50,119 nt of DNA from Bacillota bacterium (GTDB lineage Bacteria; Sysuimicrobiota; Sysuimicrobiia; Sysuimicrobiales; Segetimicrobiaceae), in contig JAJPJL010000075.1 in the NCBI GenBank assembly GCA_021324255.1, positions 1-50,119 on the forward strand, in the 5' to 3' direction. The translations under genes were made by a program, and so were the position numbers. A model generated the notes under the pieces. That model was not told the DNA's origin. It saw nothing but the letters and a program-made list of their open reading frames with translations, and made no database searches. This document shows positions 946-8,994 of this stretch, piece by piece; the first letter of the stretch is position 1, and each line of letters begins with the position of its first letter.

Positions 946-2283
946 GTGCCGTCCATAGCCGCCGCCGCCGGCATCGTCGCGCGCCTGCGCCGGGCCGGGT
1001 TCGAGAGCTACCTGGCCGGTGGATGCGTCCGCGACATGCTCCTCGGACGTCCGGCCGCCGATTACGACATCGCGACCGCCGCGACGCCGGACGACGTGGG
1101 CGCCCTGTTTGCCCGGACGGTCCGCGTCGGCGCGGCGTTCGGCGTGGTCCAGGTGCTCGTGGACGGCGACGCCTACGAGGTCGCGACGTTCCGCACCGAG
1201 GGGCCGTACCTGGACGGCCGGCACCCGTCGTTCGTCCGCTACGCGACGGCGCGCGACGACGCGCGGCGGCGCGACTTTACGGTGAACGGGATGTTCTGGG
1301 ACCCGCAGGCCGCGCGCCTGCTCGATTTCGTCGAGGGGCAGGCGGACCTCGCGGCCGGCCGCATCCGGACGATCGGCGATCCGCGGGCGCGCTTCGCGGA
1401 GGACGGCCTCCGCATGATCCGGGCGGTGCGCCAGGCCGCGGAGTTGGGGTTTACCATCGTCCCCGAGACGCTCGCCGCCATCCGCGACATGCGATCGGGT
1501 CTCGGGACGATCAGCCCCGAGCGCGTCCGGGACGAGCTCCTGCGCATCGTGGCGGGGCCCGATCCGGCGGGCGGCCTCGGGCTGCTCCACGCGACCGGGC
1601 TGCTCGAGATCGTGCTGCCGGAGGTCGCGCGCGAAGCGGGCGTGCCGCAGCCGCGGGAGTTTCACCCCGAGGGCGACGTGTTCGAGCACACCCGCCTTGT
1701 CGTGGGGGCGCTGCGGGCGCCGACGCCGGCGCTCGCGATGGCGGCGCTGTTGCACGATGCCGGGAAGCCGCCGACGCTGGTGCGCGCGGGGCGGATCCGC
1801 TTCGACCGGCACGACGAGGTCGGCGCTGATCTGGCCCGCGCGGCGATGGAGCGGCTCAGGTTCCCGCGGCGCGATATCGAGCGCGCCACCCTGCTGGTCC
1901 GGCGGCACATGATCTTCAAGGACGTGCCGCACATGCGCGAAGCCCGGTTCCGGCGGCTCATCGATTTGCCGGAGTTCCCGGAGCTGCTGGAGCTCCATCG
2001 CGCCGACTGCGTGGCCAGCCACGGCGACCTGTCCACGTACGAGTGGGTGCGGCGGCGTCAGGCGGAGCTCGCGGCGACGCCCCCGGCGCCGCCGCGGCTC
2101 GTCACCGGGGACGACCTGCTGGCGCTCGGCGCGGCGCCGGGCCCGCGCCTCGGCGAGATCCTCCGCGCGATCGACGACGCGCGCCTGGAGGGGCGCGTGC
2201 GAACGCGCGACGAGGCCGTCACGCTCGCCCGCCGTCTCATCACCAACGGCGCGGCGCCGCCCCGCGAACGCGAGGACGGATGA
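946..2283 (+). CDS. cca: CCA-adding enzyme / poly(A) polymerase family tRNA nucleotidyltransferase with HD domain
   Basis: Class II nucleotidyltransferase that builds or repairs the CCA end of tRNAs (445 aa, GTG start). The head domain carries LAGGCVRDMLLG followed by DYDIAT, whose two aspartates bind the catalytic metals. Motif RRDFTVNGM follows, and the neck has the EDGLRMIRAVR signature near residues 155-170. A C-terminal HD phosphohydrolase domain (HDAGKP near residue 270, with HEVG and RRHM following) resembles bacterial CCA enzymes that have associated phosphatase activity. The tRNA-Pro at 48 kb already encodes CCA, so repair is at least one role. An A-adding-only variant cannot be excluded without comparing specificity residues. 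Confidence 0.92.
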   Translation: MPSIAAAAGIVARLRRAGFESYLAGGCVRDMLLGRPAADYDIATAATPDDVGALFARTVRVGAAFGVVQVLVDGDAYEVATFRTEGPYLDGRHPSFVRYATARDDARRRDFTVNGMFWDPQAARLLDFVEGQADLAAGRIRTIGDPRARFAEDGLRMIRAVRQAAELGFTIVPETLAAIRDMRSGLGTISPERVRDELLRIVAGPDPAGGLGLLHATGLLEIVLPEVAREAGVPQPREFHPEGDVFEHTRLVVGALRAPTPALAMAALLHDAGKPPTLVRAGRIRFDRHDEVGADLARAAMERLRFPRRDIERATLLVRRHMIFKDVPHMREARFRRLIDLPEFPELLELHRADCVASHGDLSTYEWVRRRQAELAATPPAPPRLVTGDDLLALGAAPGPRLGEILRAIDDARLEGRVRTRDEAVTLARRLITNGAAPPREREDG

Positions 2284-2409: not shown

Positions 2410-3225
2410 GTGACGACGCGCGTGATCGCGCTCGTCAATCAAAAGGGCGGGTGCGGCAAAACCACGACATCGGTGAACCTGGCCGCGTGTCTCGCCGTCA
2501 ATAAGCGCCGCGTGCTGTTGATCGATCTCGATCCCCAGGCCAATGCGACCGTCAGCCTGGGAGTCGACCCCGGCAGTCTCTCCCGCACCATCTACCAGGT
2601 GCTCGTGGACGATGTCGGTGACGACGGCATCGGCGTGGACATGGCGAGCGTGATCACGCGGTCGAACGTCGAGCACCTGGACCTCGTGCCGTCGTCGATC
2701 GACCTGGCGGCGGCGGAGCTCGAACTGTCCGCCCGCATCGGACGCGAGAACATGCTGCGGAAGAAGATCGCGCCGGTGGTGGCGCGGTACGATTACGTGT
2801 TGATCGACACGCCGCCGTCGCTGGGGCTGCTCACGCTCAACGCCCTCGTGGCGTGCCACGAGGTCATCATCCCGATCCAGACCCATTACTACGCCCTGCT
2901 GGGGATGCGACAGTTGCTCCGGACGATCAAGGTCGTGCGGGAAGAAGTTGGGCATGCGATCGACATCGCGGGCGTCGTGCCCACGATGTACGACGCGCGG
3001 ACCAGCATCAGCAAGGAAATCCTCCAGGGCATCAAGGACTACTTCGGCGACAAGATGTTCAAGAGCGTGGTGCATCATAACATCAAGCTGGTCGAATCGA
3101 GCATGGTCGGCGTGCCGGTGTTCGCCCACGACCGCACCTCGCGCGGGGCCCAAGAATACATGAGTCTCGCCAAGGAGGTGATGGCGCTTGAGCAAGCACC
3201 GCGAGGCGCTGCGGCGGGGAATTAG
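2410..3225 (+). CDS. ParA/Soj-family ATPase (MinD/ParA superfamily)
   Basis: Deviant Walker A ATPase of about 271 aa used for chromosome segregation or for positioning cellular cargo. The P-loop reads NQKGGCGKTTTSVNLA with the signature lysine. Walker A' is LLIDLDPQANAT and Walker B is VLIDTPPSLGLLTLNALVAC. A basic C-terminal half would bind nucleoid DNA. GTG 2410 is chosen because an AGGAA lies 9 bases upstream and the resulting N-terminus (MTTRVIALVNQKGG) matches Soj proteins; an in-frame GTG at 2374 would add 12 unconserved residues. No parB follows. Instead the gene contains, near its 3' end, a strong ribosome-binding site for the next gene, an unusual Cys-rich protein. Chromosomal Soj and cargo-positioning ParA cannot be separated by sequence alone. 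Confidence 0.93.
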   Translation: MTTRVIALVNQKGGCGKTTTSVNLAACLAVNKRRVLLIDLDPQANATVSLGVDPGSLSRTIYQVLVDDVGDDGIGVDMASVITRSNVEHLDLVPSSIDLAAAELELSARIGRENMLRKKIAPVVARYDYVLIDTPPSLGLLTLNALVACHEVIIPIQTHYYALLGMRQLLRTIKVVREEVGHAIDIAGVVPTMYDARTSISKEILQGIKDYFGDKMFKSVVHHNIKLVESSMVGVPVFAHDRTSRGAQEYMSLAKEVMALEQAPRGAAAGN

Positions 3226-4249
3226 GTCCCTCATCCAGGAGACCTCCCGCGAGCTCGCCGATCTCGAGGGCCGGGAGGCCCCGGACGGCGCGGCTGTCTC
3301 GTCCGGCGAATCGCCCGCGCACCCGGCGCCGGCCGACGGCCCCTCCGGCGCCCCGGAGTGGGGCGGCGCGCCGGATGACGGTTCTCCGGCGGTCGTCATC
3401 CCGCGGGACGCCGGGGCGGCGGAGGACGCGCCCGACAATGGCGCCATCCTCGACGCGGAGGTGCTCGCCGTCGAGGTCCGCGAGCTCGCGCCGCAACGTT
3501 CGCCGGATCCGGCGCACGACGCGCCCGCGGTCCCCTCGACGACCCCGCTCGGCCCCGGCGCGGAACTCCCGGTCCCCATCGATCAGCGCGAGGCGTCCCG
3601 CGGGCTCCAGGATCGGCCCGCGGCGCCGGATCCCCCCGTGGCGGCCAGGGATGCCGGCGGCACCGGCGCGCGTGATGGGGCACCCGGGGCGCCCGCAATC
3701 CGGCCGGCTCCGGAACACGGCCCGCCGGCGCCGGACGCCGCTGCCCCTGCCCCGGGCGCCCGTGGCGCGACGGCGGGGCCCGGAGCGGGGCACCTCGCGG
3801 ACGCACCCGCCGGTCCCGACGGCGCCGCACGGATCGATGCCGCGTCCCCTGCCGCCGAGCCCGTGGCGGACCGCGAGCGCGCCGGGATCGAACGCCGGCG
3901 CGACCCGGCCCCGCCAAAAGTGAGGGCCGCGCGGCGGGCGGCCGATGAGACGCGCGGCGACACCACCCGGCGGGCGCCGTCCAAGAAGGGCGCCGCGCGG
4001 CGGCGCCCACGCCGCCGGAGTCGATCCGCCGCGAGCTCCTGGGCGCTCGACGGCGTCGATCCGCGTCAGGTGCACTCGCGGCGCGGCGTGTGCTCCGCCT
4101 ACTTCGTCGACCAGGAGTGCTGGCGGGTTCCGGACGCGTATTGCAACACGGCGCTGCATGTCTGCGCCATGCGTGAGTGCCCGGTCTACCATCTCCACCG
4201 CGACGTGCTCGAGCGGCGGTTCGCGAGCAAGTACAAGCACCTCTGGTAA
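3188..4249 (+). CDS. Unrecognised ParA-linked protein: ParB-like N-terminal tip, disordered linker, C-terminal Cys/His cluster
   Basis: A 353-residue protein I cannot assign to a family. TTG 3188 is well supported: AAGGAGGTGA (3172-3181), inside parA, lies six bases upstream, and the frame overlaps parA by 38 bases, so translation is probably coupled. The N-terminus MSKHREALRRGIRSLI resembles the LGRGLxALI tip by which ParB contacts and stimulates ParA. Residues about 30-280 are Pro/Ala/Asp/Arg-rich and probably disordered, ending in a very basic stretch. The last 54 residues are unlike the rest: C302, C311, C319, C326, C331, H335 and H337 form C-x8-C-x7-C-x6-C-x4-C-x3-H-x-H, a plausible metal or cofactor site, and the chain ends FASKYKHLW. 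Inference: a ParA partner or cargo adaptor. There is no ParB DNA-binding helix-turn-helix. Confidence 0.8.
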   Translation: MSKHREALRRGIRSLIQETSRELADLEGREAPDGAAVSSGESPAHPAPADGPSGAPEWGGAPDDGSPAVVIPRDAGAAEDAPDNGAILDAEVLAVEVRELAPQRSPDPAHDAPAVPSTTPLGPGAELPVPIDQREASRGLQDRPAAPDPPVAARDAGGTGARDGAPGAPAIRPAPEHGPPAPDAAAPAPGARGATAGPGAGHLADAPAGPDGAARIDAASPAAEPVADRERAGIERRRDPAPPKVRAARRAADETRGDTTRRAPSKKGAARRRPRRRSRSAASSWALDGVDPRQVHSRRGVCSAYFVDQECWRVPDAYCNTALHVCAMRECPVYHLHRDVLERRFASKYKHLW

Positions 4250-5654: not shown

Positions 5655-6941
5655 ATGGTCACGATCGAGCGCATCGGCGAGCACGTCGGCGAGGAAGCGG
5701 AGATCCGCGGCTGGCTCTACAACATGCGCAGCAGCGGAGCCCTCCGCTTTCTCCTGGTGCGGGACGGCACCGGCGTCATGCAGGCCGTGGCGGTCCGCAG
5801 CGACCTCCCCGCCGGCGTGTTCGACGCGGCGGGCGCCCTGACGCAGGAGTCCTCGATCATCGTCGCGGGCCTGGTGCGCGAGGACCGGCGGGCGCCGGGC
5901 GGCTACGAGATGGCGCTGCGGCGCCTGGAGGTCGTGCAGTTGGCCGACCCGTACCCGATCACCCCCAAGGAGCACGGCGTGGAGTTTTTGATGGATCACC
6001 GGCACCTCTGGCTGCGCAGCCAGCGGCAGTGGGCGATCATGCGGGTGCGCGCCGAGGTGGAGCGCGCGCTGTGCCGGTATCTCGACGACCTCGGGTATCT
6101 GCGGATGGACACGCCGATCCTGACGCCCTCCGCGTGTGAGGGTACCACGACATTGTTCGAGACGCCGTATTTCGAGCGGCGCGCCTACCTCGCGCAGAGC
6201 GGCCAGCTCTACAATGAGGCCACGGCGGCCGCGTTTGGACGCGTGTACTGCTTTGGCCCGACGTTTCGCGCCGAGAAGTCCAAGACGCGCCGCCACCTCA
6301 CCGAGTTCTGGATGCTGGAGCCGGAGGCGGCGTACCTCGACCTCGACGGCTACATGGAGCTCGCGGAAGGCTTGGTCGTGGCCGTGGTCCGGCAGGTCCT
6401 CGAACGCCGCCGCCGCGAGCTGGAGATCCTGCAGCGCGATCCGGCCGCGTTGGAGCGGGTGCAGCCGCCGTTCCCGCGCATCACGTACGACGAGGCGGTG
6501 GAGCGGTTGCGCGCGCGCGGGGCGACGATCGCGTGGGGCGACGATTTCGGCGGGGACGAGGAAACCGTGCTGAGCCGCGAGTTCGACCGGCCGGTGTTCG
6601 TCCACCGCTACCCGGCGCGGTGTAAGGCGTTTTACATGCAGCCGGATCCCGCGCGCCCCGAGGTCGTGTTGGGCGCCGACCTGCTGGCCCCCGAAGGCTA
6701 CGGGGAGATCATCGGCGGCGGCCAGCGCATCCACGACCGGGAGCTCATGGAACGGCGCATCGAGGAGACGGGGTTGCCGGCCGCGGAATACCAGTGGTAC
6801 GCGGACCTCCGGCGCTACGGCGCCGTTCCGCACAGCGGGTTCGGCATCGGTATCGAGCGGACCGTCACGTGGATCCTCGGGCTGGAGCACGTGCGAGAGA
6901 CCATCCCGTTCCCTCGCTTGATCAACCGCCTGTACCCCTAA
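5655..6941 (+). CDS. asnS: Asparaginyl-tRNA synthetase
   Basis: Class IIb aminoacyl-tRNA synthetase charging tRNA-Asn with asparagine (428 aa). The N-terminal OB-fold anticodon-binding domain spans about residues 1-100 ([23 protein letters not shown]). The catalytic core contains motif 2 ([25 protein letters not shown]), the AsnRS-type [13 protein letters not shown] loop and motif 3 ([15 protein letters not shown]). [11 protein letters not shown] separates AsnRS from AspRS, which has different residues around the amino-acid pocket. The length is normal for bacterial AsnRS. It follows the lipoprotein by 12 bases with an AGGAG about 10 bases before ATG. The downstream gap of 268 bases carries the promoter of the Nus operon; no rho-independent terminator is visible directly after the stop. 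Confidence 0.95.
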
Positions 6942-7209: not shown

Positions 7210-7704
7210 ATGAGACGCGAGGAGCTGGCCGCGCACGTGGCGGGCATGGCCGTGCCGATCGGGACCCGCATGGGGATCGAGATCGTCGACGTGGAGCTGC
7301 GCGGCGCCGGGCCGCACCGGGTGTTGCAGGTCCTGGTGGACCGCGAGGGCGGGGTCGGCGTGGAGGACTGCGCGCGCCTGAGCGAGGCGCTGAGCCGGGA
7401 ACTGGACCTGTACGATCTGCCGCTGGGGCCGTACACGCTCGAGGTCTCGTCTCCCGGGCTCGACCGGCCGCTCAAAAGGCCGGAAGACTTCGTGCGGTTT
7501 TCCGGGCGGAACGTCGCGGTGACGACGTTCGCGCCGATCGACGGGCAGCGGCGGTTTCGAGGCCGGCTCCTCGGTCTAACGGACGGCCGCGTGACGGTGC
7601 GCCTCGACGATGGGCGGGAGATCCGCGTGGAGCCCGCAGCGATCGCGCAGGCGCGCCTCGTCGTGGCGCTGGAGGACCTGCGGCAAGATTTGAAGCGCTC
7701 GTAG
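7210..7704 (+). CDS. rimP: Ribosome maturation factor RimP
   Basis: A 164-residue factor needed for assembly of the 30S subunit. The N-terminal alpha/beta domain contains GIEIVDVELRG and VLQVLVDREGGVGVEDC, followed by the family signature YTLEVSSPGLDRPLKRPEDF. The last 70 residues form the SH3-like barrel (GRNVAVTT, FRGRLLGLTDGRVTV). ATG 7210 follows an AAGGGG by about five bases. It is the first gene of the transcript from 7045-7073 and is followed by nusA after 84 bases, the standard bacterial order. Confidence 0.95.
   Translation: MRREELAAHVAGMAVPIGTRMGIEIVDVELRGAGPHRVLQVLVDREGGVGVEDCARLSEALSRELDLYDLPLGPYTLEVSSPGLDRPLKRPEDFVRFSGRNVAVTTFAPIDGQRRFRGRLLGLTDGRVTVRLDDGREIRVEPAAIAQARLVVALEDLRQDLKRS

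Positions 7705-7788: not shown

Positions 7789-8994
<1,206 letters not shown>

Follow-up and report, generated by a model that had tools for sequence, protein, structure and literature searches.

The window, a stretch of 50,119 nucleotides from a genome of the Sysuimicrobiota, contains a complete gene for a ParA ATPase (parA-x, product ParA-x) that overlaps a gene for a 353-residue partner protein, here called X (Table 1). The coordinates and the sequence confirmed this arrangement as originally predicted, with the Shine-Dalgarno sequence of X lying inside parA and 38 bases shared by the 3' end of parA and the 5' end of X. The Shine-Dalgarno sequence occupies the same position in most relatives; as the same bases encode the conserved 'AKEV' segment of ParA, it does not by itself provide independent evidence. 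Different families share the gene order cca-parA-X-asnS-rimP-nusA, apart from insertions and a small number of rearrangements, indicating a vertically inherited core locus.

Table 1. Features of the parA-X locus, with positions in the window.
Feature	Position	Strand	Basis
parA-x (ParA ATPase, 271 aa)	2410..3225	+	Pfam AAA_31 E=5.8e-60
Gene X (putative adaptor protein, 353 aa, TTG start)	3188..4249	+	ORF; 41 orthologues
Shine-Dalgarno AAGGAGGT of X, within parA, 8 bases 5' of TTG	3172..3179	+	Sequence
ParB-like, putatively ParA-activating tip LRRGIRSLI (X residues 8-16)	3209..3235	+	Motif logic from PMC12462528
Low-complexity Ala/Pro/Arg linker of X	3272..4042	+	Predicted disordered
Five-Cys 'CW' module of X (C302, C311-W312, C319, C326, C331)	4091..4180	+	Alignment, profile comparison
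C-terminal helix of X, last residue nearly invariant Trp (PVYHLHRDVLERRFASKYKHLW)	4181..4246	+	Alignment, predicted model
CCA-adding enzyme-type nucleotidyltransferase, upstream neighbour	946..2283	+	Syntenic in most relatives; name read from sequence
Asparaginyl-tRNA synthetase-type gene, downstream neighbour	5655..6941	+	Synteny; name read from sequence
rimP, then nusA, beyond asnS	7210-7704; 7789-8994		Synteny; names read from sequence

Distribution of the pair and properties of ParA-x

The X gene was sought with its C-terminal domain, used as a sequence or as a profile, in 43 genomes of the window's order (Sysuimicrobiota/CSP1-3) and in about 340 genomes of other lineages. X was found directly 3' of parA and on the same strand in 41 of the 43 order genomes; in a further one (G004) a ParA and the start of X are present before the contig ends, and the last (G034, 72% complete) gave neither parA-x nor X. 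A second match in G033, on another contig with masked bases that carries the same parA-X pair, was interpreted as a strain duplicate and not as a paralogue. The two genes overlap in nearly all of the 41 orthologous loci, and the overlap is maintained across seven families. Among the relatives that bear names are Armatimonadetes bacterium CSP1-3 and Terrabacteria ANGP1, and the phylum has been proposed as Sysuimicrobiota, with one class and one order (PMC11604079). Among the roughly 340 genomes outside the order a single remote but real pair of relatives was detected (G188 and G325), and weak matches in G061, G106, G187 and G384 were inspected and discarded as chance. Viral contigs scanned with the full protein and with its domain contained no relatives, and comparison of X with Pfam, NCBIfam, PHROGs and PDB sequences gave matches at noise level only.

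ParA-x contains intact deviant Walker A (KGGCGKTTT), Walker A' (DLDPQAN) and Walker B (IDTPPS) motifs, which together with the AAA_31 match identify it as a ParA-type ATPase. The pocket that receives the partner peptide was compared by aligning ParA-x to PDB chain 8ray_B, which was taken as the ParA of M. xanthus because every position named in PMC12462528 matches under one numbering offset. Six of the ten residues that form the M. xanthus peptide pocket and Arg13 site are identical in ParA-x (Y81, D110, E117, L150, L152, L155), hydrophobic swaps to Leu or Val are present at M. xanthus V116, L187 and L192, and the replacement of E82 by Q63 is the sole change in kind. In the same sequence alignment the DNA-binding R238 of M. 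xanthus corresponds to K226, so that a basic residue is kept.

The proposal that parA-X is a distinct pair was upheld by the canonical soj-parB found elsewhere in the window's genome, where a normal Soj and ParB adjoin each other. Within that genome the ParB family TIGR00180 matched this separate ParB and no other protein, ParB was found in 40 of the 43 genomes of the order, and each of seven order genomes checked singly contained exactly two close ParA genes. A maximum-likelihood tree placed the ParA-x proteins within the broad Soj-like radiation as one clade (100/100), apart from the Soj clade of the phylum (97/93). The ParA-x clade joined three ParAs of other lineages at 100/99, none of which is adjoined by ParB, whereas nearly all other close ParAs checked have ParB next downstream. 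A literature search on ParA in the Sysuimicrobiota returned nothing relevant.

The closest relatives of ParA-x thus encode a non-ParB partner directly downstream. In L199, L230 and L231 (L227:4869-6312, minus strand) ParA is followed by a TPR protein of about 207 residues that lacks ParB features, an arrangement shared by three genomes from a single small phylum. This protein begins DNVLGKGIEAIF, a clear ParB-type tip with the core LGKGIEAIF, and the two genes represent a second ParA-adaptor pair that is apparently undescribed. In L200/L228 and L202/L229 ParA overlaps a fused PilM/PilN-like gene, named from its sequence; in L229 (858-5531) the pair lies within a type IV pilus operon, with a pilO-like gene and a secretin, likewise named from sequence, downstream, making it a candidate for ParA-driven pilus positioning. 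These partners have TPR or PilM/N bodies and, unlike X, no Cys module. As the closest relatives have such partners while nearly all other close ParAs checked have ParB, it seems that in this clade ParB has been exchanged for other partner bodies; X and the TPR protein plainly retain the tip.

Tip, linker and C-terminal head of X

The original prediction described X as a protein with a ParB-like N-terminal tip, no ParB box or helix-turn-helix, about 250 disordered residues and a novel C-terminal Cys/His domain. The tip, EALRRGIRSLI, is present at residues 6-16, inside a predicted N-terminal helix of about residues 2-29. The ParA-binding peptide of M. xanthus ParB depends on L11, L15, L18 and I19 and on the central R13 (PMC12462528), and all five determinants occur at exact spacing in X as L8, R10, I12, L15 and I16. 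The motif L-x-[RK]-x-[ILV]-x2-[LFIV]-[LI] was conserved among the homologues, as the prediction demanded, being found in 39 of the 41 orthologues; in the other two a His replaces the central Arg, and the tip glycine is gone in two orthologues, indicating that the tip tolerates change. The tip of the window's X was scored for its likeness to 31 ParB tips from its own phylum; it exceeded 99.8% of shuffles, and of about 880 N-termini from proteins other than ParB and X it failed to beat only one. The ParB of the same genome starts MRRGLGRGLGSLI, and relative to the ParB tip X has R rather than G at position 2 and R rather than G/A at position 6. At the level of sequence, X possesses the short, charged N-terminal ParA-interaction peptide by which positioning partners are recognized.

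The linker of the window's X is a low-complexity region of about 257 residues rich in Ala, Pro, Arg and Gly, close to the disordered length first estimated. Orthologous linkers range from 42 to 279 residues, as would be expected of a tether. Within the linker a short motif, RP[ILV]L[RK]LVR (VRY[IL][QR]P in one family), is conserved in 20 of the 41 orthologues, for example L022 and L018, and is not present in the window's family; it is possibly a second binding motif.

The Cys/His domain was found with exactly the predicted spacing, C-x8-C-x7-C-x6-C-x4-C followed by H335 and H337. The five cysteines are invariant across the X orthologues, the Trp after Cys2 is likewise conserved, and a Trp is the terminal residue in 40 of 41. 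The histidines are variable, with H335 replaced by A, D, N, F or R and H337 by N or Y, so that the proposed metal site is better described as a five-Cys site.

The supposed novelty of the domain was also not borne out. A profile search with the X domain matched the remote relatives in G188 and G325, two short Cys-rich proteins adjoining HD-GYP proteins, and the relatives of these two proteins form a 7-Cys unit that is either stand-alone, beside HD-GYP/GAF proteins (L116, 3123-3314; L117, 51-263), or C-terminal on an HD-GYP protein (L149) or on MerR/HspR-like regulators (L151, L154, L156). Comparison of the X domain with the 7-Cys CW module (alignment A4) using hhalign gave a probability of 93% and a score of 38, against scores of at most 18.5 for 300 decoys made by shuffling columns; in one half of the decoys the Cys columns were left in place. 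In 35 of the 43 order genomes the A4 profile, built without X, had the X locus as its sole match, with E values of 5e-6 to 4e-3. Cys 3-7 and the CW motif of the module are present in X, as is its C-x-[VI]-Y terminus; the first two Cys are missing, the end reads C-x4-C instead of C-x2-C, and an extra Trp-ended helix is added. These alignments identify the head of X as a truncated and divergent form of the 7-Cys CW module, and the loss of two of seven Cys together with the added helix suggests that its role has changed. Homologues of the C-terminal domain without a neighbouring parA, which the original prediction had set against itself, do therefore occur at remote distance, the MerR/HD-GYP-type homologues not being ParA partners; the orthologues of X always adjoin parA.

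The 7-Cys CW module is widespread, and no Pfam or NCBIfam model scores above threshold on it. No description of it was found in papers or curated families, and literature searches on the two-CW domain and on the module in MerR/HD-GYP contexts gave nothing relevant. The NCBIfam two_CW_domain (NF045718, 35-bit cut-off) is similar in style but a more distant look-alike that stays under threshold, and was matched neither by X nor in the 43 order genomes. Single-chain AlphaFold models were mediocre (pLDDT 63 and 74) and showed the head of X as small and all-helical with moderate confidence; fold searches with both models gave no PDB match.

Possible function of the ParA-x/X pair

The pairing and overlap of the genes, the conservation throughout the phylum, the ParB-like tip, the conserved catalytic and pocket residues of ParA, the regulator-type head and the separate soj-parB make it rather likely that ParA-x and X form a ParA/MinD-type positioning pair in which X is a new adaptor, the ATPase-activating partner. 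The neighbours of X count against this, being housekeeping genes that give no hint of a cargo. By analogy with other ParA/MinD systems X would be expected to link nucleoid-bound ParA-x to a cargo; that X binds ParA-x directly and activates its ATPase, that ParA-x associates with the nucleoid, that the head binds a metal and that a cargo is moved are inferences. In such a mechanism ATP-bound dimers of ParA-x would cover the nucleoid, and the N-terminal tip of X would dock at the edge of the ParA dimer and set off ATP hydrolysis, freeing ParA. Cargo borne by X would then climb the gradients of ParA and become spaced or inherited. The linker may serve as a flexible tether, and the five-Cys CW module with its terminal-Trp helix as a cargo-binding or oligomerising head. 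This head probably holds a metal ion or Fe-S cluster, through which positioning could respond to redox or metal state. Conceivably, although this is doubtful, the pair comprises a phylum-defining ParA motor with a metal or Fe-S adaptor head borrowed from redox or second-messenger regulators, coupling the position or inheritance of a core cellular structure to redox or metal state, and is one of several lineages of a ParA clade in which the partner bodies (Cys module, TPR, PilM/N) are exchanged behind a ParA-activating N-terminus.

The cargo of X should be a phylum-wide structure other than a carboxysome, flagellum or chemoreceptor array. The BMC shell family PF00936 was found in one of the 43 order genomes and is lacking from that of the window, which rules out a microcompartment as the general cargo; carboxysome positioning by an McdAB system, considered on account of the terminal Trp, was rejected for the same reason. 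The sole BMC shell gene is L226 (G022:C10:58020-58235). Flagella and chemotaxis genes have been reported in only two of five families (PMC11604079), whereas X is phylum-wide, so that these cargos too are unlikely. Kinship of the ParAs makes a pilus or secretion platform a possible cargo. ParA-x groups with the L200/L202 ParAs that overlap pilM/N (inner node 94/73, outer node 100/99), so the adaptor may serve a type IV pilus, a related secretion platform or another machine of the envelope; with the inner node weakly supported and the conserved neighbours of X being housekeeping genes, this sub-case appears quite improbable.

The main rival to the adaptor reading is that X is a sensor, whose Cys head perceives redox or metal state and whose tip is the output that tunes its ParA, and thereby chromosome segregation or division. 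The positions of the Cys-module relatives on signalling proteins, C-terminal to MerR/HspR-like and HD-GYP proteins or beside HD-GYP/GAF proteins, would fit this role, as would the likelihood that members of the phylum are facultative anaerobes (PMC11604079). The head of X, however, lacks the first Cys pair and carries the added Trp-ended helix, and biochemistry of the module was not found described anywhere, so that a sensor is regarded as unlikely. The place of the ParA clade in the Soj-like radiation and an Arg-rich stretch that precedes the Cys module in the window's X could instead point to a second DNA partition system, with X a centromere-binding protein that moves a chromosome region or a fixed mobile element. 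Most orthologues lack the Arg-rich stretch, neither a ParB box nor a helix-turn-helix is present in X, which also matches nothing in Pfam, NCBIfam or PHROGs, the syntenic core is chromosomal and not mobile, and the order genomes with a separate parB leave such a system a very slim probability. It is barely credible that the resemblance of the tip to ParB stems from an amphipathic helix arisen by chance, with X functionally unlinked to ParA and the two genes merely co-transcribed. The motif is indeed short (nine residues) and 0.2% of shuffles reach its score, but its position and spacing are kept in the orthologues, as are the gene overlap across the seven families and the ParA pocket.

Comparison with other ParA/MinD systems

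The partners of ParA/MinD ATPases are extremely diverse, and many ParAs are 'orphan', with a partner that is not known (PMC10241942). Here the sequences identify the partner of a ParA across an entire phylum and yield a prediction of how tip and pocket meet. The head type of X was not found described for ParA/MinD systems, so that X would represent a new adaptor in a known kind of machine, and the pair points to a further cell structure conserved across the Sysuimicrobiota. The same logic provides a search recipe for positioning systems: a ParA, followed by a protein with L-x-R-x-[ILV]-x2-[LFIV]-[IL] at residues 5-20.

When ParA-x/X was compared with ParABS (Soj-Spo0J), the ParA fold, the Walker motifs and the ParB-like tip with its pocket were common to both. 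X differs in lacking the ParB box, CTPase domain and helix-turn-helix; family searches found no ParB-family match in X, in agreement with the original prediction, and the true soj-parB lies elsewhere in the same genome. McdAB consists of a ParA-type ATPase and a small adaptor with a basic N-terminus, a disordered region and an invariant C-terminal Trp (PMC11321042), features that recur in ParA-x/X, where the Trp is nearly invariant; there is no sequence match between the adaptors, and X contains a Cys module. A short charged N-terminal activating peptide is common to the diverse partners of PomXYZ, ParC/PpfA and other ParA/MinD cargo systems (PMC7993993, PMC10241942) and resembles that of X, although the bodies of these partners are unrelated to X.
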